64,000 nucleotides of DNA from Pneumocystis sp. 'macacae' (lineage: Eukaryota > Ascomycota > Pneumocystomycetes > Pneumocystales > Pneumocystaceae): assembly GCA_018127085.1 (NCBI GenBank), contig CM030723.1:191685-255684 (forward strand), read 5' to 3'. The position numbers were made by a program, and so were the translations under genes. The notes under the pieces were generated by a model. The model saw only the letters and a list, made by a program, of their open reading frames with translations, was not told the origin of the DNA and did not search any database. Below, piece after piece: positions 39,909 to 62,200 of the stretch. Each line of letters starts with the position of its first letter. The stretch's first letter is position 1.

Positions 39909-42900
39909 TCATAAAATAACGTCTGGGAATATAAGACCATCTTCTGATAAAGGTTTAGCATCTTTAAAGCTTGAATAAGGAAGCATTGATAGCCAAAGTT
40001 TGTCTGAATACATTCTTTCAAGTGTTTTCATTAATGTTTCTACCTCTAATGTCTTATCTGGTTTTCTAAAAAAAAGTACAACTAATTCAATCATTTTATC
40101 AATAGTTTTATCCGGTAATTTAACATTTTCAACAGCAATACTAAGCGTCATAAATATTTTATTTTGAACTTTTATTGATTTCGAAAATCTATCCATAAGT
40201 GCATAATTACTTCGTTGAAAACTTGCATTTAAAAGATCACACAAATTCTTAATTCCATGTTTAGAAAGTCTCGAAGTCATAAAATCTTTAGCATAGATAC
40301 AAAGCAATGCAACAACATCCAAAGCAGACAGAATAACAGATGTTATTTCATTTAAATTTAACTGACTAATAACAAGAGGCCAAATATCATTAACAAACGG
40401 CAAAAAGCTTTTCTCATCTAATGATAAGAAAGGTATTGAAGTAGAAAGCATTTTTAACAATCCATTCCGAATATTTGATGAGTGATGATTAAGAAACATT
40501 TGTGATTTATCAGAGATTTTTTGGATAATTTTGAGTGTAACTTTATTAATATTATTTGATAATTTTTCCAGAGAGTTAGAATTAGAATGATTAGATGATT
40601 CAGATAGAATTTCAGTTGTTTCCACTATATTTTTATGATACAGAGAATCTATTTTATCAACAATGCGAACAACTTCTAAACATGGACCCGTGCTATGAAC
40701 ATCATCCTCGTTTACGGTACAAGAAATGCTGGGCCTTATGGGATTGCCGTTGATTTGAATCACTTCATTCAAAAATGAAAAAAACACCGCAACAAGTGTA
40801 GAATAACCATGATAATTATCCAATATAACGAACACAGAATCCACAACATCTTCCAAATAAGGAACAATACTAGAACCTATTAAACGCAAAAGAATAACCA
40901 GTATAGAAGGCCCAGTGGGCATCACATCAAACGTATTTAACCTCAAGTTAACTGCATTGATCAAATAATCAACATTCCCTATCAACAACCCCTGAACCGA
41001 GTCATATTCACAATACATAGCCAAGTTATTCAAACATATACGTGCATGCCTAGTTATATTTTCATAAGGACTCCCAAGCAAATAAACTATCGGATACAAA
41101 CAATCAACAAGCTCTGCCCTGAATTCCTTCCCAAGCCTTTTTGCAACCAGACATATGACTTCCAGATCCAAACACACCCGAACCGCTTTACTTTGAGATG
41201 TATTACTGTCCGAAAAATCATCCTCTGAAAAAGACAAAAAATCCACTATATAGTTCAACGAGTCAACATATATATCCATACATATGCTCTCGATATTCAC
41301 TTTTAGGTCCTGATTGTCCACACACTCTACATAGCAATCATAATGCTCTACCACATCCCGCAAACTACACAGAAAAATCCACTTGAACACATTTGCACGC
41401 GACTCATGTGGCGATATCTTGATCTTGTAGAGAAGATAGTTCAAAAACTCAACCAACGAACATTTCCCAAAATACACAAATATCCTTTCCAATGCCAAAA
41501 ACGTCTTTCTGCTTTCTATGCCCACAAAGCACTGTGCCGGAAACACCTGTCCCGGCTCCCCATCAAGCGGATCCTCCACACAAAGGCGCATCACCGGCTG
41601 CACAAGACCCCCCACTCCGGACACCCGGCTGTCCCCCCCAAGACACAGTGTCCCCGCTATCCCCTCCACAAGAAAGTCACACACAAACTTCGCCTCCTGC
41701 CGCCCCCTTTGCAGCAGAGACACTGAATACATCACTGCCACCACGTGCCGCCGCTTTGCATCCTCGTCCGCCCCCCCACTCTCTCTCTGCCACCCCTCTA
41801 AGTGCTCCCTCAAAAGCACCTCAACCACCCCCCAAAACCCCTCCCCCCCCTGCCCCCCCGCAAGCTCAAACAGACGGCCCTCCGCCGCCGCCTGCACACC
41901 GCCCTCCTCGTCCCCCGCAAGAAACAGCAGCGTCGAGACCAGCAGCTTCATGCAGTTCTCCAGTGTCCTCTGGCATCTCCCCACAATCCTAAAGCACATC
42001 TCCACCACCTCCTCCCGCACCCGCTCTCTGTAGTGCGTCTTCAGCCCCGCAAGGATCCTGCACGCCCCATACATGTGCTCGCGCGCACCCTCCACCCACT
42101 CCTCCCCCGCCTGCCCTAACCCTACCCCGGCCCCGCACCCGCCAGACCCCAGCCCTAACTCTCCACGACCTGCCCTCTCTTCGCGCCCTAACCCTAGCCC
42201 TGCACTCTTGTGCCCTAACCCCGACCCTAGCCCTGGCCCCTCGCCGGCCTGCGCCTCGTCCGAGAAACACGCAACCACCAGCCGCCCACACAGCTCCACA
42301 GACGCCCCCACCACCCTGCTGCTCCTCAGCCCCCCCGCCACCCGCCTGCACACCCCAGACACAATCCCCGGCACAAACCGCCTCAGAACCCCCCTCTCCC
42401 CCACCACCCCAAACAGCACCACACACAGCACCTCCACACACCTCCTCTGCAGCCCTATGCTCCCCGTGCTCCCATAGATCTCAACCAGCACCCACACCCC
42501 ATACCCCACCACCCTCTCCCCCCCCGCCCCCTCCACCCCTCCCCCCCCCGCCGCCTCCCGCTCAAACAGCTTCCCAAGAGCCTCAACACCCTTCATCCGT
42601 ATGTCCTCCGGCATCTCCCGCCCCCCCACCCGCACAAACCCCGCCAGAAGCACACACAGCTCCCTCCCCAGCTCCCCCACAACCCCTGTCCCCCACCCCG
42701 TCTCAATCAGCAGCCCTGTACACTCTACCATCCTCGCCCTAACCCTGTCGCTCTGTCTCCGCTCCTCCCGCCACAGATGCCCCAGCGGCATAAACACATA
42801 GTCCGCAATCCCTGTCCCAAGCATGTTTCCCGCCCTTGCATGCCGCTCCAGGACTGTCTGCAGCTCGTCCAGTGCCTCCTCGACGCCCTCTCCCCCCGTC

Positions 42901-43008
42901 CAGACAGTGCTCAGCCGCTGACACACCGGCCTCAACTGCCCTGTCAGCCCCGCCCTGTCTGCTGCCACACACCTCTGCAAAAGCTGCCGCCCGCTGCGCC
43001 CTGTCCAT
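39909..43008 (-). CDS. TTI1: Tti1, subunit of the Tel2-Tti1-Tti2 chaperone for PIKK kinases
   Basis: HEAT-repeat protein (about 1020 residues) that helps fold ATM/ATR/TOR-type kinases. The long frame seems to start at a GTG, but a better start is ATG at 43006-43008: MDRAQRAAAFAE, then a 37-nt intron (42936-42972, donor GTGTGT, branch-like GCTGAC, acceptor GCAG), then LRPVCQRLSTVW. This restores the family's N-terminal AF..LRPVC pattern. Further on come IADYVFMPLGHLWR and, in the C-terminal half, ARICLNNLAMYC, VDYLINAVNLRLNTFD and ILDNYHGYSTLVAVF. Composition changes sharply inside the gene: AT-rich (Ile/Asn/Ser/Lys) from 39.9 to about 41.5 kb, very GC-rich (Gly/Arg/Val) from there to the start. 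Residues of about 245-285 form a Gly/Leu insert encoded by telomere-like repeats. Confidence 0.88.
42114..42742 (-). repeat. degenerate interstitial telomere repeats in TTI1
   Basis: CCCTAA occurs four times with CCCTAG/CCCTAC/CCCCGA variants between 42114 and 42236, and once more at 42737-42742 (TTAGGG on the coding strand). Within TTI1 these encode GLGLG-type peptide. The number and spacing exceed what a random GC-rich sequence should give. Confidence 0.7.
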
Positions 43009-43138
43009 GCTGTGCTGTCCCCGGCACACCCCTTGGCTAGCGTGCACGTCCCGCCAGCAACACGCGCCGACAACCGCCCGGACGCTGTCGCTGTCGCTGT
43101 TCCAGCAACCCCTGCACTGTCGTCTTGCACTCGGGTTG

Positions 43139-43149
43139 TATGCGTATAT
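43139..43149. promoter_or_regulatory. TATGCGTATAT motif in the TTI1/ASH1-like promoter
   Basis: An AT-containing 11-mer in an otherwise GC-rich 200-bp divergent spacer (43009-43208). The identical 11-mer is at 58370-58380 in the ARO2/CSL promoter. A regulatory role is inferred only. Confidence 0.35.
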
Positions 43150-43208
43150 GTAGTAGCGGCAGGCCGCTCAGCGCATACAGTGCAGAGGCGGCAGCAAGAC
43201 CCAGTGGG

Positions 43209-44132
43209 ATGGCATTGTCGCCTGAGTCGCCAAGTGCGGCGCGGCGGGGGACACGCAAACAGGTCCAGACAGAGGACGGGTCGGAGCCAGGCGTTGTCCT
43301 GAGCTTCCGGTTTGTGTGGACACGGCGGGGGAGCGGCGGGCTGTCGCCGGCAAGCTCAGAAAGGAGCTCGGAGAGCCAGGAGGGCGGGGTCACGTGCAGG
43401 GTGAGCTCGTTCCCGGTGCTGCTGGGGCAGATCATCGAGGACGAGCGGGAGCGGCGGGCAGCGGGGGGGATTATTGTAGCGAGTAAGCGACTGCAGTGTG
43501 CAATCAAGGACAATGAGGGCAAGAAACGAAGTATGCGGGCGCCATGAAGTCTTTGATTTGGTTGAGAGGCATGCAGTGGCTGACGGGGGTCTAGTGGGGG
43601 GGGACGAGGCGGAGGGGGGACAGAGGAGGCTGGGGGCGCCGCTTGTGTGTGGGGAGGGCCAGGGGGTGTCGTCGGCATATCCAGACACGGATCTGGAGTT
43701 TTGGAGGAGCAGTCTGGAGAGGCAGCTGCGGGAGCGGGAGAGCGAGGGGCGGCGGGTGCAGGGGGTGGGGGGTGTGCGGGGGAGGCGGTGTGTGGAGAGT
43801 GCAGAGCGGGGGGAGAGGGAGCGGGGGGACAGACGGGTGTCCGCAGCAGAGAGACGGTGTGTGTCGTGTGGGTGCTCGAGCACGCCGTGCTGGCGGCCGA
43901 GTTGGTATGGAAACAGCGGGTTGCTGTGCAACAGCTGTGGGCTGAGGTAGGGGAGGGGGTGTGGCGTGGTAGTGACGGAGACAGATACAAGAAGACTGGG
44001 GTGCGGTGTCTGAACAAGAACTGCCGGCATATTCCTCTGCGCTCGGAGTTCAGGGAGATGAAGAACAGGGTGACGGGGAATGCAGCGCTTGACTGCATCA
44101 AGTGTGGGGGGGAGGTCAAGATCCGGGGGTAG
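43209..44132 (+). CDS. ASH1-like GATA-type zinc-finger protein
   Basis: Probable nuclear repressor of the Rpd3L-associated Ash1 type. Three exons are inferred: 43209-43530 ([13 protein letters not shown] ... IKDNEGKKR), 43577-43946 and 43985-44132, totalling 279 residues in continuous frame. The GATA finger is [16 protein letters not shown] ... LLCNSCGLR, and the last intron joins it to [19 protein letters not shown] final CIKCGG is close to the end. The order C-x2-[18 protein letters not shown] and a following Cys pair is what I associate with fungal Ash1. The N-terminal region is unconserved, charged and Gly/Arg-rich because of local GC content, so the start codon is less certain than the finger. 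Confidence 0.65.
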
Positions 44133-44820
44133 CGTGGGCGGGGCTGGGGTTGAGAGGGCCAGGGTTGAGGGTAGGGCTAGGTGTGGAGAGGGTTAGGGTT
44201 TTGTATGGAGAGGGTTAGGGTTAGGTGTGGGGGTGTGGAGGGGGGTGCGGCATTGGTGCCGCGATTTTGTTTCTTTTTGTGGTGTACATAGCGGCCATCA
44301 GTGTGGGCTGTCAGAGCATGTTTTGTACATTATATTGTGTAAATAGCGGGTTCTGTAGTGAGCAAGAGTCTGTATTTCGTTGCACTGCACGCCCGGAGAC
44401 TCGGACGGGTGTCCGGGAGTGTGTCCGGTAGAACAAAGGGGTTCCGTTGCTAAGCGACAGGAGTAAGCGGGAAGATAAGCGGATGAGGTTTGAGATGCAA
44501 GTGGAGAGTATTGGTTTTTTGCACAGGAAAAGCATTTTCAGGAGCCTTTTGGGCATTGATTGTGGACACAAATAGTTTGGGAAACGAGTATCATAAATAT
44601 CAGAAGAATATTGTGTATTTGGACTAATTTGCTGGAAACATGGGTGGGCTTGCTAGGTAGATTGGGTGTTTTGTGTCTATAAATATTCGGGAGTTAGAAC
44701 AAAAGAATACTGAATAACGATAGAGCAGGAAGTAGAAGGGGAGAGATACATCTTGGTGTGGAGGAATGGAGGCCTAGACAGTGGCAGCAGGAGGGGTTCT
44801 GTGCGTCTTGGATGCATTGA
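44133..44820. other. G-rich spacer with telomere-like repeats
   Basis: The first 130 bases are strongly G-rich with TTAGGG-type units. The rest declines in GC. A small inverted repeat CCCGGA ... TCCGGG lies at about 44391-44416. No convincing coding frame or RNA gene is seen. It probably holds the ASH1-like terminator and the SOK1 promoter. Confidence 0.5.
44188..44230 (+). repeat. degenerate telomere repeat downstream of the ASH1-like gene
   Basis: Two short blocks of GGGTTAGGGTT separated by a GTATGGAGA-type spacer, with further TAGGG and TTGAGGG variants just upstream. The G-rich strand is the ASH1-like coding strand. Confidence 0.7.
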
Positions 44821-46944
44821 ATGGTATTGTCAGTCTTGCTGTGTAGAATGGATGCAGCGCGTTCTCAGGCTTCTGGTCAGCATCGGAGGTGTTCAGAGAC
44901 AGAGTATGGTAAGGATATGGCGGCGGTGTTTATGGTGGAGCACTGTCCGTGTGGGATTGCCGGGTCTCTAGACGGATGTTCGATAGGGAGCAGGGTCTAT
45001 GGACAGGCAGTGGCCGTTCTGTCGCGGTTTCCTGTGTGTGTCTCGAGAGATGACGATAGTGTATTTGGCTGCAGTGAAATCAGTGCATTGTCTTCTGTTT
45101 TGCTGGACAGACGGGGCGGCAACTATGCATGCGAGATTTCATGTTGTGTCTTTTGCCAGGAGCATAAAAAATTTTGCAGGAACTTCACTGTTTTTTCATT
45201 CAAGATATCGAAGGCTATTACAGATCTACTGGTTCAACCTCATTTAAATTCTCAGATTCCTAAGCAATGCAGCCGCCCGCCATCTCAGCCTATACAGTTT
45301 CTGTCAAAATCGACTCTGTATAAACTGAGTTATTGTGATTTTATTCTGGATTCCGGTTTCTTTCCATTAAGGCTGAATAGTTTGTCCAGTGTTTGTTCTC
45401 ATGATTTTGTTTCTTCGAAGATGCCAGTGTCTTTTTGGATGGATTCTCCTTTACTTAATACATATTTTGCTCCGCCTATTACTCAAGCTATTTTGCAGGA
45501 ACTCGAGCTTCAAGAAATTCTTAAGAATGTTCAGCTTCGCCATGATATTGTACATGATACAAATTTGCAATTTCGCCCCAATCTGGACGGAGAGCGCGGC
45601 GAAAGAAAGCAACATCTCGCAGATAGATATTGGAAAAATCTGAAGAAGGAAATCGAACAAATACGTATATTTCAATCGAGAAAAAACAATATAAATCCTA
45701 TTCATGGATTCCCTCATACTATTAGAATTTTTGTTTTGTTTATTGAATTAAGAAATATTTTACTTAACCTTTTACCATCTTCTAATAAAACTTACATTAT
45801 TGAGATTTTAGATCCGAATCTTATAGTTCAAGAAATTATTCATAACTTATTTGATATTGAAAAATTCGTTGAGCATCTTGTTAAGATCTTGAAGCAGCAT
45901 TGTGCGCCTATGAGAGATATATTATTGGATAAAATGGCTAAAAAAGTTAAGATGGGGCTTAAAGTTAATAATGTTTCAAAATTTGTTGCTGGTCTTCGGA
46001 TGATATTTGATATACTTGAAATAATGAAACTGGTGTGTATTATTACTAAAAATTAAGTCATATCTCAAATTGTATAGGATATTGCTAATCATCAGCTTCG
46101 AACACTAAAAACATATTTTTTGGAAACAGCAGTAGAATTTGAGCAAAAATGGTTTATTGATAGAATCAATTGGGGTGATATTGATATCAGCGATGCTTTA
46201 TCTTGGTATTGCCATTTTTATCATTTTCATATTAAATCAGATTTAAGAAATTTTGATTATCAAAAAGCATTTGTTGATGGTATATATTTTATTATTTCTG
46301 AAATATATTAATTTCGTTATTCAGGTGTTATAGCATCTATTACATATATTTCATTGTTTGATTTTCCGTCAACATTTACATTCGATATACACCGTCTTAT
46401 CTTACTTCGTTCTAATATTCGTGATATTGTTTCTTTTCAATTAATTCTTCTCCTTTTTTGGCAATTACTTCGAACCCGTGCGTTAAGACTTTCAAGAAAT
46501 GATATAATAGAGTTTAAACGAGAATTATGGTTTATTGTAAATAAAGAACTTGATGATAATAAATGGCTTAATAATATTCCATCTATTAGTACTCAGATTT
46601 TTAAGTATATCAATTTAAAAGAATCATGTTTTCCAAATATGTTGGATTCAACAAAAGTTACTATTATAGAAAACTGGCTATCTAAACATCTTTTTCCATT
46701 TTCTTCATTATATCGTTTAGTTGAAAATCGTATTCTTAAATCAATTGGTGATGAAATATTTAAAACATTATGTATTTCAAATGAAGGAGCTTCGCTATTT
46801 TTTTACGATCGTGTTCTGCAAGAATCATACTATTTGTTCATTGATACAATTCTTGGAAAATTGTCAAAAATTGTCATATTTCACTGGAAAGTATTTGGAA
46901 GATGGTATATTGACTCTATAAGGAATAAATCTACATCTACATAA
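44821..46944 (+). CDS. SOK1: Sok1/TCP11-family protein
   Basis: Fungal TCP11-domain protein. S. cerevisiae Sok1 is a high-copy suppressor of cAMP-kinase defects. The family hallmark LELQEILKNVQLRHDIVHD, then NLQFRPNLDGERG and RYWKNLKKEIEQ, is unmistakable. After an intron at GTGTGT following MKL comes DIANHQLRTLKTYFLETAVEFE. After a second (GTATAT ... TTCAG), VDG-VIASITYISLFDFPSTF and a helical C-terminus ending SIRNKSTST. The start is uncertain: the first in-frame ATG (44821) would add about 190 poorly conserved residues encoded in the fading edge of the GC island. A later Met such as MPVSFWMDSPLL would keep the conserved domain. Confidence 0.85.
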
Positions 46945-56439: not shown

Positions 56440-58238
56440 TTAAAGTATCCTTGCATCTATTAAAGGCAAAAAGCCCCGAGCAGTCTGTCGAGACAACTGA
56501 ATCATAAGCGCACTTTAATAAAACGTTAGCACCTAAAAATCAAAATATACAAAAACTTACTCCATAATAACCAATGCAGTCATTGATTCGACAATAGGCA
56601 CTGCACGAGGCACAACATTTGGATCGTGTCGCCCTATAAGAATTCTTTAAATATATTAACCATTTCATAAACGAAATCCATACCCTGAATTTCAAGAACG
56701 CCCTCAACACCATCATACATTGCGGTTACCTGTGGCTTTCTAATACTTGCCGGCGGCTTAAATGCAACCTTAAAAAAAAGATGTTCTCCATTTGAAATAC
56801 CACCCAAAATTCCCCCTGAATTATTCGTAACCGTCCGTAATGCCGTCCGTGGAGGCACTACTGTTGCCCCTTGCTGCTGAACCCGCTGCCCCAGAACATA
56901 CATATCATTATGTTTTGACCCCGATACTTCTGCTCCCTTAAATCCAGAGCCAATTTCAAAACCTCTAGTCGATGGAATTGAAAGCATTGCATGTGCAAGC
57001 TTGGCTTCAAGCTTATCAAAGCATGGTTCGCCCAAGCCTACTGGAAGATTCCTGACAACACATGTAATTGTCCCTCCAACAGAATCCCCACTCTGTCGAG
57101 CCCGTTCCACACGCTTCACCATCTTCGCACTTGCAACTGCATCCGGACACCGTACCAGTGATCCATCTACTTGCTCCCGTGTCACCCCCGCCAAAAACGA
57201 TAGAAATTCTGCCCTTACAACTTCATCCTCTTCTGATTCATCTTCATCCGACAGATCTTTCTCCTTCTCTAAATTATCTTGGACATTTTTCAGTACATCT
57301 TTATAAACGTTTTTATCCTCAGCACTCTCCCCTAAATGCATTATCCGTTCTGTCTTAAGCTGCACATCCAGCTGCCCCTGGCGCTCTAATCTCTGTTGCT
57401 CCCGCCAGACCTGTCGCTGCACAGCCCTTGGCTCCATATGGACCCGTCCAATAGACGAGACAAACGCTACAATTTCAATCCCACAAACTTCCCGAAGATA
57501 TTTGTCTGCAATTGCCCCAGCTGCCACACGTGCTGCAGTCTCCCGTGCACTGCTACGTCCTCCCCCACTACTTGCATGACATCCATATTTGCACAAATAT
57601 ACCAAATCAGCATGTCCTGGCCGAGGATATCTGCATGCTGCCATATACTCATATTTTCTTACATCCTCATTACGTATCCTTAGTGCTATTGGTGTCCCCA
57701 GTGTTATACCCCCTTCTACACCAGATTCAATCTCTACAAGGTCCTGTTCTGAGCGCTACATGCCTGTCAGCACTCGGTATTGCATCACACCTCATCCAAA
57801 CGTCATCACAATCATCACAAGCCTACTAACAAATAAAACCAGGCAAATCAGGCGAAACCAGGCAAAAACCAAGCAAAAATAAACAAAACCAAAGACTCAA
57901 ACAAGACCATGCAGAGCCACAAAACTATCCAATGCCCAAAAACTAAGCAAATTCGTGCAAAACTGCACAAACTCAAGCAAACTCGCCAGCACCAGCCCAC
58001 TATAGATCCTAGTGCCCGCTGCCTGTGGCTATTTCCAGCCACCCATACCCAGTCCGTGTCCGAGTCTTACCTGAGTTGCAAGCCGGGACTGTCCCGGACG
58101 TCGTCGTCTAAGCTGTTCCTGGATATCCCCCACCGAGAGCGCTAATCCTGGCGGTACACCGTCAACAATACAGCCCACTGAGCATCCGTGGGATTCTCCA
58201 TATGTGCTTACACGGAAAAGCACCCCAAATGTCGACAT
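56440..58238 (-). CDS. ARO2: chorismate synthase
   Basis: Last enzyme of the shikimate pathway: EPSP to chorismate, using reduced FMN (fungal forms also reduce flavin). The start is [20 protein letters not shown] (58236-58238). A slightly upstream in-frame Met is less like the family. Signature 1 is [19 protein letters not shown], signature 2 [20 protein letters not shown], signature 3 [16 protein letters not shown]. Also [20 protein letters not shown]. An acidic insert ([10 protein letters not shown]) precedes [15 protein letters not shown], as in other fungi. The first intron is unusually long, 315 nt (57756-58070), and is placed between LATQ and [12 protein letters not shown]. The last intron (GTAAGT donor, GCTAAC branch-like site, TAAAG acceptor) gives [17 protein letters not shown]. 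The 5' half lies in GC-rich island 2. Confidence 0.94.
57756..58070 (-). other. 315-nt intron of ARO2
   Basis: Phase-0 intron between conserved LATQ and RSEQD blocks, donor GTAAGA and acceptor ATGTAG. It holds CAAA-rich quasi-repeats (AAACCAGGCAAA, AACCAAGCAAA and similar near 57,836-57,980) unlike the AT-rich introns elsewhere. It is about seven times the usual intron length in this window. Confidence 0.75.
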
Positions 58239-58261
58239 CCCATCCACTGTCCCAATCACTC

Positions 58262-59024
58262 AGACCATATATGCGTCCAAAGGCCTCCAAAAACCCTATA
58301 TGCGTCTAATACTACACCTCCTCATGCATATACCCCCATATATGTCCCACCAATATACGCTGTGCACTATATGCGTATATATACGTAAAACCAGCGTATG
58401 TATGCACCCTATACACGTATATATGCATACATATGTGTCCAATCAGCATGTGTATATGTTAAATCAGTGCATATAGGGACAGACATGGCCAGCAACCCTG
58501 CGTACCAATGCTCTGCAACACCCTATCACACCAATCAGTGGTCTATGCGTCTAAACACATGGTATATGCCCGAAGCACCACTTATATGCCCCGAAATACC
58601 GTCTATATGCGCCCCAATTCCACCAGTTGCCCCTCTCCCCCAAGACGGCATGGATGCACTCCCCCAGCCTTTGCCTTCGTCTAAGCAGTGCGGAGTGCGC
58701 ACGGGACGGCACTCGCCAGCGTGCGTGGCGTTTTGGCGCTTCACTGGAAAACGCTTAGCCGCGGACACTCGATAGACGGAAACGGAGAATACACGGCACG
58801 GAAAAGGTTGTCACGGCTCCCGCTGAGCCAAGCACGGTTGGATTGCGAAGGAACGGCACCGTCCTACAGACGAGTGGCGAAGATTAGTGTAAATTTGGGG
58901 GAGACAAGGCGAAGCAAAAACAGGAATCGAGTGCAAATAAAGAGTGCATACAAAGCGCATATACTACGCATATAGCACGCATACACAGAAGATACAGGCA
59001 ATATACCAAGTGTCTGGTGCATAT
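58262..59024. promoter_or_regulatory. ATATGC motif cluster in the ARO2/CSL divergent promoter
   Basis: The 1.05-kb spacer between ARO2 (58238) and CSL (59284) has no convincing gene. About a dozen ATATGC/GCATAT hexamers fall here on both strands by eye, including TATATGCG four times (near 58266, 58297, 58369 and 58611) and TATGCGTATAT at 58370-58380. ACGGCAC-type repeats follow at 58,700-58,865. Many short open frames on both strands are non-conserved. Confidence 0.5.
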
Positions 59025-59283
59025 AACGGCAGAACAGGCATTTTCTGCACACCTCTAGTGGCTTGGCGCACAAAGACTCGTAAAGACTCGTATGAGATAC
59101 AGGTGCCCAATATAGACGAGCACTGCAATAGACACTGTACGAGCCATTACAAGACATTTAGAGGCACAATACAAGAGAGAGTAGGGGTAAAGCGCTTGAT
59201 ATTGTTTTGGAACAGATAATTTGGAGCTTGGTGACTCTAAACAAAACGGCAAAAGAAGCCAGACAGGCACACAAGCCGGGAAA

Positions 59284-62200
59284 ATGCGTACACCTCAGAT
59301 TGAAGCACCAGTAACAGGGACAACATGTGGGTTTTGTGAGGGATACAACCGGACGGAGTGTGAGCCAGTACCTCGGAATGCATGTACGCTGCAGCCACTG
59401 CCGTCGCCACCACGGGACGATGCAGCAGCAGCAAACTTCAAGATGCAAACATGCCGACAGAGTTCTCATGCAGTACCCGGGCAGGAACATTCCGGGGATA
59501 GATGTGACAGGCATGTGCACGGGGTACACGGGGTGCCTCTAATGCATGAGACACAGGAACTGGATTTTCGAAAAACACCGGTCCTGTACTCAGGAACAGG
59601 ACAGGAGATGTATCCAGGAGGAGATGCGGGATTGATAGGAGTTTCTGATACATTTGAATATTTGCATTGTTTGCCGACACCCACAACACTAGGGTCGACC
59701 CACTGGACATACCCAGAATACGGGTATGACAAAATTGCAGGGTATTCGGGAGTACCTTTGCAGCAGATGATGTTTCCAGAGTATCCAGGACTTGTTCATG
59801 CATATAGAGAAGGTATGGGGATGGAGGGCCTGGGGATGGGAAATAAGGAATATGGATATATGGCATATAAGATGCCGGCGGGCATGTTTACTCCAGGACT
59901 GGTTCCTATGTATGATGGAACAATGGGGGGATCAGCAGGGATTCATGGGATGGGGGGAGTTTGTGGGTCGCCGTTTCGTATGGGAACGACTCTCTATGGA
60001 GAGCCGGCACCATACAGTCCAGTACTAAACAGTCCGCTAGAAATGCCGGGGATGGGTGATTTGCCGTATGATCATTCACTGCATCATCAATTTAAGGAGC
60101 ATGGAGGAGAGATGTGTTTTAATGGGGTGGTGAATGAGGAAAGTTACAGTCCGGGACTGCATCCGGCAACAGGAGGGCAGCGGAAGTGTTATAAAATGCG
60201 TACGGGGAGCCCAATAGGTCATTCTGTGAAGAAAACAGGGGATTCATTGGCAGTGAGACGGGGAAAACCGATAAGTTCACTGGTAAAGTCATATGCTCCA
60301 TTGCCTGAATCTGCATTAAGGTACAATATATGTTTACATCACTACTGAGTCTCAACATGGATATAGATGCATTGTGGATGATTATCTTTCACTAAGTCCA
60401 TCAGAACTGCAGAAACAAAAATATTCGGTAATGATTTACACGAGCAAAGTAGCACAAAAGAGTTATGGGGCGGAGAAAAGGTATGTGTATTCAGGAATGG
60501 GGAGTCTGCTTATATCATATGACAGGTATCTTTGTCCTCCTCCGTATCTTCGACTTCTTGGATCGAAATGGTTCGAAAACTATTCACAAGACGTTCATTC
60601 CATGGATTCGGTCTTTTCACGGACTGGTCAAAATGAGCACCCGTATTCTCTTGACATAGGTACTCGTGGACTCGAATCATTTATGGATATTCATGTCACG
60701 TCATTGCTCCTGGACGTAGAGGAAAGTTTTAGTGTTTCGTCAATGGATTGTTATTGCTGCGATGGGAATATCTTTAGACCTGGTATCGGGAAAACACAAC
60801 CCATCTGGGGAAAAACACATCTTAGGACAATGTATATTTCTGATCGTAAAGAGAAAATACGTTCTACGTGTTTGAAAGTGCAGTTACATAGGAAAAACAA
60901 AGAATCGTTTAATTTCGCTCAATTCCAGTCTTCTCCTATATGTATCATATCAAAAGCGCCTCAGAAAAAAACAAGCAGTAAAAATAATGACAGTACGGAT
61001 CTTTTTTCTTTTCCATTGAAGCTTACGATTTTTGCAGTGTTGATTTACCATGGAAGTATGATTGCTTTATTTAATCGTTCTAAAGCCCAAACCAATCGTA
61101 TTCGGTTTCTCGGGTCGTCATCTGCGAATTCTGTTATAACAAACAATGTTTTATCAGGAATGAGAGGTCGTTATGATACAGACTTGAATTCCCAACATAC
61201 CTATTTAACAGCAAATTCACAATCATGGGAGCCATTTCAAATATGGTCACTGGATTTGTTTGTTAACCCGACATTTTCTAGCAGCTCTGCTCAAAACACA
61301 AGCTTGATTCGCTTTAATCAAGTGGTCGTTTTACAGTGTTCCACAACAGGATTGTTGACCACACCATTGATTATTCGTCGAGTTGATGGCCGAAATACCG
61401 TTATTAAAACACAAGAGATCATAAAAAACACTGACTATAAAGCTGGAGCGGAAAATAATGAGCCTGTTAATTCATTACAAAAAGTAGCGTTTCAAATTTA
61501 TAACGAGGATTCTAACTTGTCGTCTGACATATACCTTACACACCAAGACGAAAGTATTGTTATGCAGCCTGCACGGGTTTCAGAAGATGGGACAGGTTTG
61601 GCATTTTCCGATTTCGATCCATCTTCCAGAATGTCTATTCAGAATTCTTTATGGGAGATGTCTAATACTAATTCGCATCTTGATACCTTTTTCCCTCAAA
61701 AAGATTTATTGGATAATGCCTATAATAGACTATTTTCTTATCATGATTTTATGCAAAAATTTGGCCGACACAAAACTGATACTTTAAACAGTACTATAGT
61801 TCAGGACATTCAACACAAACATAGTCCTTTATACATAAATCCTATGTCTTGCCAAAGCTCTCCGGGCGATAAGAATAGCTCAAATTCCGCAGAAGATATA
61901 ATTGAAAGTACTAAGAATGTATTAGAAAATGCAGTATGGAATATTATAGGAATATGTAAGATATTTAACGTTTATTCAATACAAATTTGCTAACAACTTG
62001 AATAGCATTATCTGAATCATCTTTTTATATTTCTCCTAAATCTAAAATTAATGCAGTTGGTCTTGTTCCAATCATTAAAGAAGTCAAATATCTTTCCGTA
62101 AATATTATCCAAATCATTGGTCAACACATCACTCAATCATATTCCGTGTGGATTAGTGGCAAGCCATGTAGGATATTCCGGTTTTCAGTATTTTTTGCAG

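Follow-up and report, generated by a model that had tools for sequence, protein, structure and literature searches.

GC-rich islands with mirror-image strand asymmetry in Pneumocystis macacae: candidate footprints of recurrent double-strand break repair

GC skew and R-loops at CpG-island promoters follow transcription. Skew at replication origins extends for tens of kilobases or more, and an origin with a G-rich leading strand is expected to flip from C on its left to G on its right. GC-biased gene conversion is usually treated as strand-blind. For human meiotic hotspots, the excerpted text of one study reports strand-asymmetric mutation across the flanking 2 kb, with C>N and A>N mutations on the forward strand, and describes none in the central 100 bp (PMC7615360).

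The window analysed here, a 64,000-nucleotide stretch of Pneumocystis sp. 'macacae' DNA, carries two GC-rich islands whose skew changes sign internally. Their main features, in window positions, are as follows.

41520..45135, no strand: GC island 1 (whole), from the maximal GC segment and the GC profile
41520..43131, minus (outward G-rich strand): left arm of island 1, GC 0.66, plus-strand skew -0.52
43131..43132, no strand: centre of island 1, putatively break-prone, from the cumulative-skew minimum (precision no better than some tens of bases)
43132..45135, plus (outward G-rich strand): right arm of island 1, GC 0.57, skew +0.43
39909..43008, minus: TTI1 gene, from Pfam PF24173, PF21547 and PF24181 and alignment
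42084..42250, minus: degenerate telomere-like tract in the TTI1 reading frame, TTAGGG on the outward (minus) strand
43513..44132, plus: GATA-finger (ASH1-like) gene with two exons, from ORFs and start and stop letters, intron by eye
44153..44247, plus: degenerate telomere-like tract that follows the GATA stop codon, with TTAGGG on the outward (plus) strand
56831..60263, no strand: GC island 2, arms with GC 0.48/0.50 and skew -0.34/+0.19, centre about 58,677

Island 1 was bounded by its maximal-scoring GC segment and centred on the minimum of cumulative GC skew. A preliminary description had pointed to about 3.7 kb of strongly GC-rich DNA in an otherwise AT-rich window, and this holds: GC is 0.57-0.66 across 41,520-45,135, far above the roughly 0.19-0.37 of almost every 1-kb window that lies outside both islands. 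When GC and skew are plotted in 200-bp windows, as that description had proposed, GC is 0.57-0.73 between 41.5 and 44.3 kb, then 0.38-0.53 up to 45.1 kb. The skew extremes are -0.74 (left) and +0.67 (right), and the sign changes only once within the island, near 43.1 kb. The flip between the arm means (at about 43,131) falls between the divergent TTI1 and GATA genes, and the G-rich strand is indeed the coding strand of both. This flip is more than chance: the right-minus-left skew difference is 0.90, and a difference of at least 0.36 occurs in only 3 of 394 background 4-kb segments (overlapping segments, contig C4).

Some gene assignments at this locus involved judgement. The TTI1 start codon (43006-43008) was placed by eye according to where the P. 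jirovecii protein begins, and a short first intron is proposed. The GATA-finger match to PF00320 scores 24.2 bits, under the curated cut-off of 26.8. TTI1 orthologues are present in five other Pneumocystis species, and two proteins encoded on contigs C14 and C10 of the assembly are 100% identical to NCBI P. macacae proteins over 100% and 90% of the query. The earlier claim that the island DNA is native is thus borne out, with splice sites judged only by eye. Orthologous proteins further suggest that a weaker form of the islands may exist in P. jirovecii. Island 2 lies between genes for chorismate synthase (minus strand) and a LAG1/CSL-type protein (plus strand). Neither tRNA genes nor Rfam families at gathering score were found in the 64-kb window.

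We then assembled a set of 14 islands on eight contigs, which is an examined set, chosen as listed here, and not a genome-wide count. Four islands (L029-L032) were picked first since their S-runs appeared C-rich on the left and G-rich on the right. The other ten were chosen without regard to skew: scanning C4:1-255,684 gave three, and S-run places gave seven. Among the 100 of 108 S-run matches that were listed we counted 33 clusters, of which 11 were examined; the others were 14 ordinary clusters, 3 runs of poly-G/C, and 5 that repeat a common subtelomeric-looking word. The S-run search overlooks islands, including island 1.

All 14 islands pass from C-rich on the left to G-rich on the right, including those with tandem or convergent gene layouts, and the switch lies no further than 17% of island length from the GC midpoint. 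The ten islands chosen without skew all flip the same way (10/10) when split at the GC midpoint, a criterion that is independent of skew. Averaged over up to 28 arms, G is elevated to about 2.5 kb from the centre and C near the centre only, so the gain in G+C is not strand-symmetric: away from the centre, G is gained by the outward strand only. The outward strand loses both A and T, and therefore A-to-G change alone is insufficient as an explanation. The GC peak is found in silent, non-coding, and coding island DNA alike; at fourfold sites, GC is about 0.74-0.78 pooled in islands versus 0.20 in four AT-rich gene stretches, and the standing skew at silent sites reaches about 0.7-0.9. We found no description of mirror-skewed GC islands in the literature searched.

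The islands also carry telomere-like repeats with a common direction. With the skew minimum as centre, 63 of the 68 TTAGGG hexamers in the 14 islands point outward and 5 inward, three of which cluster in L029. For GGGTTAGGG the counts are 43 outward and 2 inward, and the outward count compares with a mean of 1.3 and a maximum of 7 in 100 dinucleotide shuffles per arm. The ten islands chosen without skew give 48 outward and 5 inward hexamers (32 and 2 for GGGTTAGGG) when centred on the GC midpoint, and 52 and 1 (34 and 0) when centred on the skew minimum. Furthermore, when 6-mers are ranked by excess over an order-3 Markov model, the first seven include all six TTAGGG rotations. Internal TTAGGG repeats therefore exceed chance in both the shuffle and the order-3 tests, which argue against G-richness alone as their source.

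A subtler alternative is that slippage plus base bias on the G-rich strand, rather than capture of telomeric DNA, built these tracts. Their short, degenerate form, interspersed with CTAGGG, CAGGG, and TTGGGG units, fits slippage. The shuffle result and the top ranking of the TTAGGG rotations do not, nor does the description of TTAGGG, in excerpts of one report, as the telomere repeat of the genus Pneumocystis (PMC7940399). We regard slippage as a serious but less probable source.

Other motif searches were less informative. No common centre motif emerged, as the 6- to 8-mers near centres are only generic GC-rich words. CACGTG occurs 36 times in 57,714 b of islands and 18 times in 206,600 b of background, an enrichment to which three islands contribute 24 of the 36 copies. 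ATGACGT, which we take to be the fission-yeast M26-type hotspot core, is not enriched (2 in islands versus 14 in background).

Each island probably marks a site of repeated double-strand breakage, most likely a meiotic recombination hotspot. Breaks would recur no more than a few hundred bases from the centre. Resection would remove 1-2 kb from the 5' ends, and the lost strand would be resynthesised from the homologue. On each side of the break, the geometry has the new strand extending outward in the 5' to 3' direction. If repair over time favours G on that newly made outward strand, whether because heteroduplex mismatches are corrected with a bias (gene conversion) or because a repair polymerase preferentially inserts G opposite T, the outcome would be high GC with G outward on either side. 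Individual breaks would scatter to both sides near the centre, and G and C would both rise there. The outward-growing 3' end might occasionally acquire telomeric repeats, by telomerase or by copying, which would leave outward TTAGGG tracts. The islands, their mirror symmetry and short range, the independence from transcription, the outward telomere-like tracts, and the matching amino-acid shifts are observed; that the centres are breaks, that these are meiotic, and which enzyme or bias is at work are inferred.

The G-elevated range of about 2.5 kb fits the scale of resection or conversion tracts, about 1-2 kb per side according to general knowledge and the excerpted human hotspot study (PMC7615360). 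According to excerpts of another report, three Pneumocystis species have meiosis genes and transcribe them (PMC4764891). The preliminary description had offered GC-biased conversion at a recombination hotspot as half of its explanation; our results are consistent with that half, and we favour it. It had also placed the hotspot at a promoter. The flip does lie between divergent genes in island 1 and at the H3/H4 pair of L037, where it is intergenic, but it falls within coding sequence in L029 and L034.

The asymmetry extends to protein sequence. In the outward-coded TTI1, the gain is limited to G-type residues, and in the inward-coded SAD1 to C-type residues, so the amino-acid shifts in both carry the base predicted by the break-repair reading. 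This would cleanly illustrate a DNA-level process, as opposed to functional selection, steering a protein's amino acids according to the side of a point on which the gene lies. The left part of CLASP, which is inward-coded, departs from this, as G-type and C-type residues are both up rather than C alone. Further observations contrary to the break model are the 5 of 68 inward hexamers, the right-side skew of the C4 47-kb island (to about 9 kb), and the missing common centre motif. In addition, the left forward strand retains or gains C, a sign opposite to that in the excerpted human data (PMC7615360).

Replication origins offer a different account, in which the skew is a leading/lagging-strand effect. 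The C-left/G-right flip has the expected sign, and one of the three islands with long flanks, the C4 47-kb island, keeps a mild positive skew (.07-.28) to about 9 kb on its right. However, mean outward skew past the island edge is +.15, +.02, and -.02 in successive 0.5-kb steps. Skew is thus near zero 0.5-1 kb beyond the edge, too short a range for an ordinary origin, whose forks go much further. The GC rise also coincides with the skew, and outward telomeric tracts are not predicted by this model. We therefore consider origins unlikely, with that one island a partial exception.

Transcription was examined through fourfold sites in genes of known direction. Choosing frames by a codon-likeness score performed poorly in GC-rich DNA and was replaced by 40 ORFs chosen by eye and submitted to Pfam; 35 matched at E 0.001, two of them (GATA and the L038 zinc finger) with best scores below the curated cut-off. 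Names finer than the Pfam family (PRP28, Wee1, IleRS, SmD1, RIM2, etc.) were assigned by eye, as were GET3 and UTP15 at the C4 47-kb island, which supplied no stretch to the counts. Across 36 gene-by-arm stretches, fourfold sites are G.625 and C.113 when coded outward (n=1809), and G.121 and C.662 when coded inward (n=869). After three stretches with fewer than 25 sites were dropped, all with the expected sign, the outward-strand medians were.70 for outward-coded and.67 for inward-coded stretches, with no difference between the two classes (p 0.62). These equal and opposite biases indicate that skew tracks side of the centre, not transcription.

One way to retain transcription is to propose unannotated bidirectional non-coding RNAs that start at each centre. 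A mirror pattern without dependence on annotated genes would follow. One study reportedly places fission-yeast hotspots at loci that express non-coding RNA (PMC2483352), and so the two ideas could combine. Strong antisense transcription would nevertheless be needed through PRP28, SAD1, IleRS, and others, with an effect at least equal to that of sense transcription because the sense direction has no measurable effect. We find this proposal improbable, more so than origins.

Transcription of the flanking genes themselves, by R-loop-like exposure of the coding strand, was the other half of the preliminary explanation. Island 1 and several other divergent-gene islands do have G on coding strands. 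Against this, 10 of 11 inward-coded, Pfam-confirmed stretches (at least 25 fourfold sites, seven islands) are C-rich on the coding strand. Moreover, the C-left/G-right flip persists in L030 (PRP28 plus on the left, SAD1 minus on the right), L032 (three plus genes), L034 (SmD1 and CLASP both plus), and L039 (acyltransferase plus, GDP-mannose pyrophosphorylase minus). Gene transcription is thus contradicted as the source and has almost no probability.

Foreign DNA or an assembly artefact is just as improbable: the composition is extreme for the P. macacae genome, but the islands carry ordinary housekeeping genes whose closest relatives are Pneumocystis orthologues, and the TTI1 and CLASP frames span island edges into AT-rich DNA. 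We therefore rejected it. Centromeres, expected once per chromosome, were also rejected, since five of the 14 islands are on contig C4 alone.

We see an even chance that the reference holds a signed record of recombination, in which polarised repair at tens of fixed hotspots drives the outward strand to G, captures telomeric repeats, and rewrites essential proteins. If so, hotspot centres could be read from one genome of an unculturable organism. A G asymmetry that persists in the sequence, is mirrored about a centre, and is indifferent to gene direction would offer direct evidence of polarised break repair or conversion. It would also let hotspot centres be tested from sequence alone where an organism resists crossing or culture. 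Direct measurement of recombination is difficult in Pneumocystis, and the islands indicate where to look.

Among known systems, CpG-island promoters resemble island 1 in having a flip at a divergent promoter, but their skew follows transcription and that of the P. macacae islands does not. Skew jumps at replication origins share the sign of the flip, yet extend over tens of kilobases or more rather than about 2.5 kb per side. In excerpted reports, mammalian interstitial telomeric sequences at double-strand breaks are likewise internal TTAGGG tracts attributed to repair (PMC7215372, PMC2246262, PMC8537989). Unlike these, the P. macacae tracts are degenerate, clustered in islands, and share a direction relative to the centre; one sits in a coding frame, whereas the excerpted mammalian survey describes none in human coding exons (PMC7215372). 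The runaway GC clusters of gerbils, as presented in excerpts, show the same local, strong AT-to-GC change that alters conserved proteins and is attributed to recombination, but there "GC skew" denotes enrichment in GC rather than a difference between strands (PMC7403616, PMC6573468). In the P. macacae islands, one strand gains G, the sides mirror each other, and the scale is about 4 kb. Human meiotic hotspots, according to the excerpted study, are like the islands in showing a flank asymmetry (2 kb) that is absent from the very centre, and it is ascribed there to resection and repair synthesis; the human asymmetry is in the rate of new mutations and has the other sign, whereas that of the P. 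macacae islands is a standing composition (PMC7615360).

In 200-bp windows, the GC content of island 1 is 0.57 to 0.73 over 41.5 to 44.3 kb and then 0.38 to 0.53 to 45.1 kb; outside the window's two islands, it is 0.19 to 0.37 in nearly all 1-kb windows. A maximal-segment rule places island 1 at 41,520-45,135, with its cumulative GC-skew minimum, hereafter the centre, at ~43,131. GC skew runs from -0.74 to +0.67 and changes sign only once inside the island, near 43.1 kb, as the preliminary description had proposed for the divergent promoter between these genes:

TTI1, left of the island 1 centre, minus strand (Pfam)
GATA-finger gene, right of the island 1 centre, plus strand (Pfam, below the curated cut-off)

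Elsewhere, each 1-kb segment of window 1-26,000 (26 in total), which holds no island, has negative GC skew on the plus strand (-0.06 to -0.37); gene direction likely lies behind this bias.

The window spans C4:191,685-255,684. A sliding scan of C4:1-255,684 yielded three islands longer than 3.4 kb (the window's two and one outside), a series of shorter, GC-richer pieces near the contig start, and three pieces of 0.5-0.9 kb with GC of ~0.44. Across the genome assembly (8,274,841 b in 19 contigs, a contig count that differs from the 16 scaffolds of the published 8.2-Mb assembly, PMC7940399), runs of G/C letters occur in at least 111 places per strand (18-letter form) or at least 54 (start-anchored 17-letter form). 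Eleven such places were fetched and combined with the three scan islands, giving 14 islands spread over eight contigs (C2, C4, C5, C8, C10, C11, C14, and C15). The 561-kb contig C4 bears at least five islands, three of them in the ~250 kb scanned, and extrapolation from 3 per ~250 kb or at least 5 per 561 kb gives a guess, rather than a count, of ~70-100 islands genome-wide. Separately, an identical GC-rich word of the 24-letter class recurs in either orientation at C3:307, C4:553170, C8:480288, C10:472864, and C13:6509, always within ~13 kb of a contig end, as a shared subtelomeric-looking element.

In all 14 islands, the left arm has negative GC skew (-0.17 to -0.52) and the right arm positive skew (+0.19 to +0.43), and the switch is offset from the GC midpoint by no more than 17% of island length. 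AT skew shows no consistent flip across the same islands. When islands were split at the GC midpoint, which is independent of skew, the right-minus-left difference was positive in every case (0.36-0.90); background 4-kb segments average 0.00 (s.d. 0.15), with a value of 0.36 or more in 3 of 394 overlapping segments. Four islands (L029-L032) had been picked because they looked C-rich on the left and G-rich on the right, and the remaining ten were picked without regard to skew; the flip is present in all ten. One island (L036) has two negative-to-positive crossings (~2.75-3.0 kb and 4.25 kb), a pattern that two adjacent centres would give.

The preliminary description had suggested a transcription-linked asymmetry behind the skew, and this explanation fails once genes of both directions are compared. 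Among coding stretches confirmed by Pfam, PRP28 (plus) fills the left arm of L030 and SAD1 (minus) the right, the reverse of a divergent arrangement, and the island still flips. So does L032, where all three genes (ABC ATPase, ribosomal S12, ClC channel) lie on the plus strand. The flip falls within CLASP in L034, where a Sm-type gene and CLASP are both on the plus strand, and within a minus-strand ubiquitin hydrolase gene in L029. L037 is centred at a divergent H3/H4 pair, and its right arm holds an additional minus-strand gene. On the coding strand, fourfold-degenerate sites are G.625, C.113, A.169, and T.093 (n=1809) in genes directed away from the centre (outward-coded) and G.121, C.662, A.091, and T.127 (n=869) in those directed toward it (inward-coded). 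Of 36 stretches, the 33 with at least 25 fourfold sites were kept; coding-strand skew is positive in 19 of 22 outward-coded and negative in 10 of 11 inward-coded stretches, and the four exceptions (MRPS12 twice, RIM2, and the L039 acyltransferase) all lie within ~260 bp of their own centres. When skew is expressed on the outward strand, which reads 5' to 3' away from the centre, the two classes show no difference (medians.70 outward-coded versus.67 inward-coded, p 0.62). Because the two classes are alike on this strand, the skew does not take its sign from the divergent promoter of island 1, which is incidental.

As a mean of up to 28 arms, G on the outward strand is.39 in the first 250 b,.42 at 1 kb,.345 at 1.75 kb, and.17 at 3 kb; C at these four distances is.26,.20,.17, and.165. 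G is raised to ~2.5 kb, C is raised near the centre only, and A and T both drop. Past the island edge, mean outward skew in 0.5-kb steps is +.149, +.022, -.024, -.002, and +.014. Among the three islands with long flanks, the window's two lose skew within 2-4 kb of the centre, and the C4 47-kb island, which lies outside the window, keeps mild positive skew (.07-.28) on its right out to ~9 kb. The usual reach matches resection or conversion tracts rather than replication forks. In the C4 47-kb island, ARAGORN places a tRNA-like gene with an ambiguous anticodon at the centre (C4:49,098-49,191). A second call near the L029 centre (L029:4,151-4,229), possibly spurious, overlaps with the reading frame of the ubiquitin hydrolase.

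Many arms contain degenerate TTAGGG, CTAGGG, and CAGGG units in tracts of tens to ~300 bp, including two in island 1:

42,084-42,250, minus strand, telomere-like tract within the TTI1 frame
44,153-44,247, plus strand, telomere-like tract

TTAGGG hexamers number 63 outward and 5 inward, against dinucleotide shuffles of the arms with means of 19.2 and 1.1 and maxima of 27 and 4; three of the five inward copies form one cluster in L029. The word GGGTTAGGG occurs 43 times outward (shuffle mean 1.3, maximum 7), in 12 of the 14 islands, and twice inward. Measured against an order-3 model, the seven 6-mers in greatest excess include every one of the six TTAGGG rotations, and the hexamer is found 68 times in 57.7 kb of islands versus 46 times in 206.6 kb of C4 background. 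Genome-wide, GGGTTAGGGTTAG has 57 copies, of which 32 lie in two arrays at contig ends and 25 are internal. Other repeats were also seen. Minisatellites of 11-bp period with a CGCATACA-type core occur in five islands (L036, L037, L038, L039, and window ~58,955-58,983, where the core is CGCATATA) and are possibly a hotspot-linked repeat family. CGCATA occurs 84 times in 57.7 kb of islands versus 27 in 206.6 kb of background, and CACGTG arrays of ~10-bp spacing in L029, L033, and L035 account for 24 of 36 island copies.

Related species were compared through proteins, using amino acids as proxies for G and for C in the first two codon positions. For TTI1 residues 140-405, the G/C proxies are.442/.172 in P. 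macacae,.365/.172 in P. jirovecii,.302/.184 in P. oryctolagi,.259/.209 in P. wakefieldiae,.251/.158 in P. murina, and.170/.203 in P. canis. In the AT-rich C-terminal part, both proxies are.17-.20 in all six species (84 residues only for P. canis). Inward-coded SAD1 gives.208/.304 in P. macacae,.204/.198 in P. oryctolagi, and.194/.193 in P. carinii. For CLASP, compared over residues that map at 95% identity, P. macacae has a G proxy of.442 in the stretch 0.4-1.2 kb to the right of the centre, and the five other species have.207-.241. The N-terminal part of the protein is GARP-rich in three species: P. macacae (.395, with both G and C proxies up, not C alone), P. jirovecii (.382), and P. oryctolagi (.486, on 70 residues). 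It is not so in P. carinii (.188) and P. wakefieldiae (.218). At the protein level, the proxies suggest that islands are partly common to P. macacae, P. jirovecii, and P. oryctolagi; they look stronger in P. macacae, and their centres may shift. By eye, the TTI1 protein annotated in P. jirovecii (P0001) resembles in part a frame of the GC-rich stretch at window 41,989-42,480 (minus strand) other than the TTI1 frame of the remaining species; perhaps the gene model is wrong or the frame differs.

Text searches of the P. macacae genome paper for 'GC content', 'GC-rich', and 'skew' (PMC7940399) and of the centromere preprint for 'GC-rich' and 'skew' (PMC10327204) returned no matches. A library of mainly open-access papers, screened by title and start of abstract, yielded no such Pneumocystis islands and no standing mirror skew at hotspots. 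The islands are not centromeres, since C4 alone bears five of them and published work reports one centromere on each chromosome, its GC being lower in P. murina and P. carinii (PMC10327204).

A point source with ~2 kb reach, an asymmetry that reverses and fades at that source, and co-directional telomeric repeats fit repeated double-strand-break repair. After resection, the rebuilt strand would by geometry run outward on both sides, and the outward strand is the one that is G-rich and bears TTAGGG. The bias here could be conversion in which the new strand is favoured to carry G, or DNA synthesis placing G opposite T, and telomerase acting on the extended 3' end might give the tracts their common direction. 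Meiosis genes are reported as present and transcribed in three Pneumocystis species (PMC4764891). At human hotspots, new mutations are strand-asymmetric across the flanking 2 kb, with no asymmetry in the central 100 bp (PMC7615360). However, the sign of that asymmetry differs from that in the P. macacae islands, and therefore the bias in the latter must be another.
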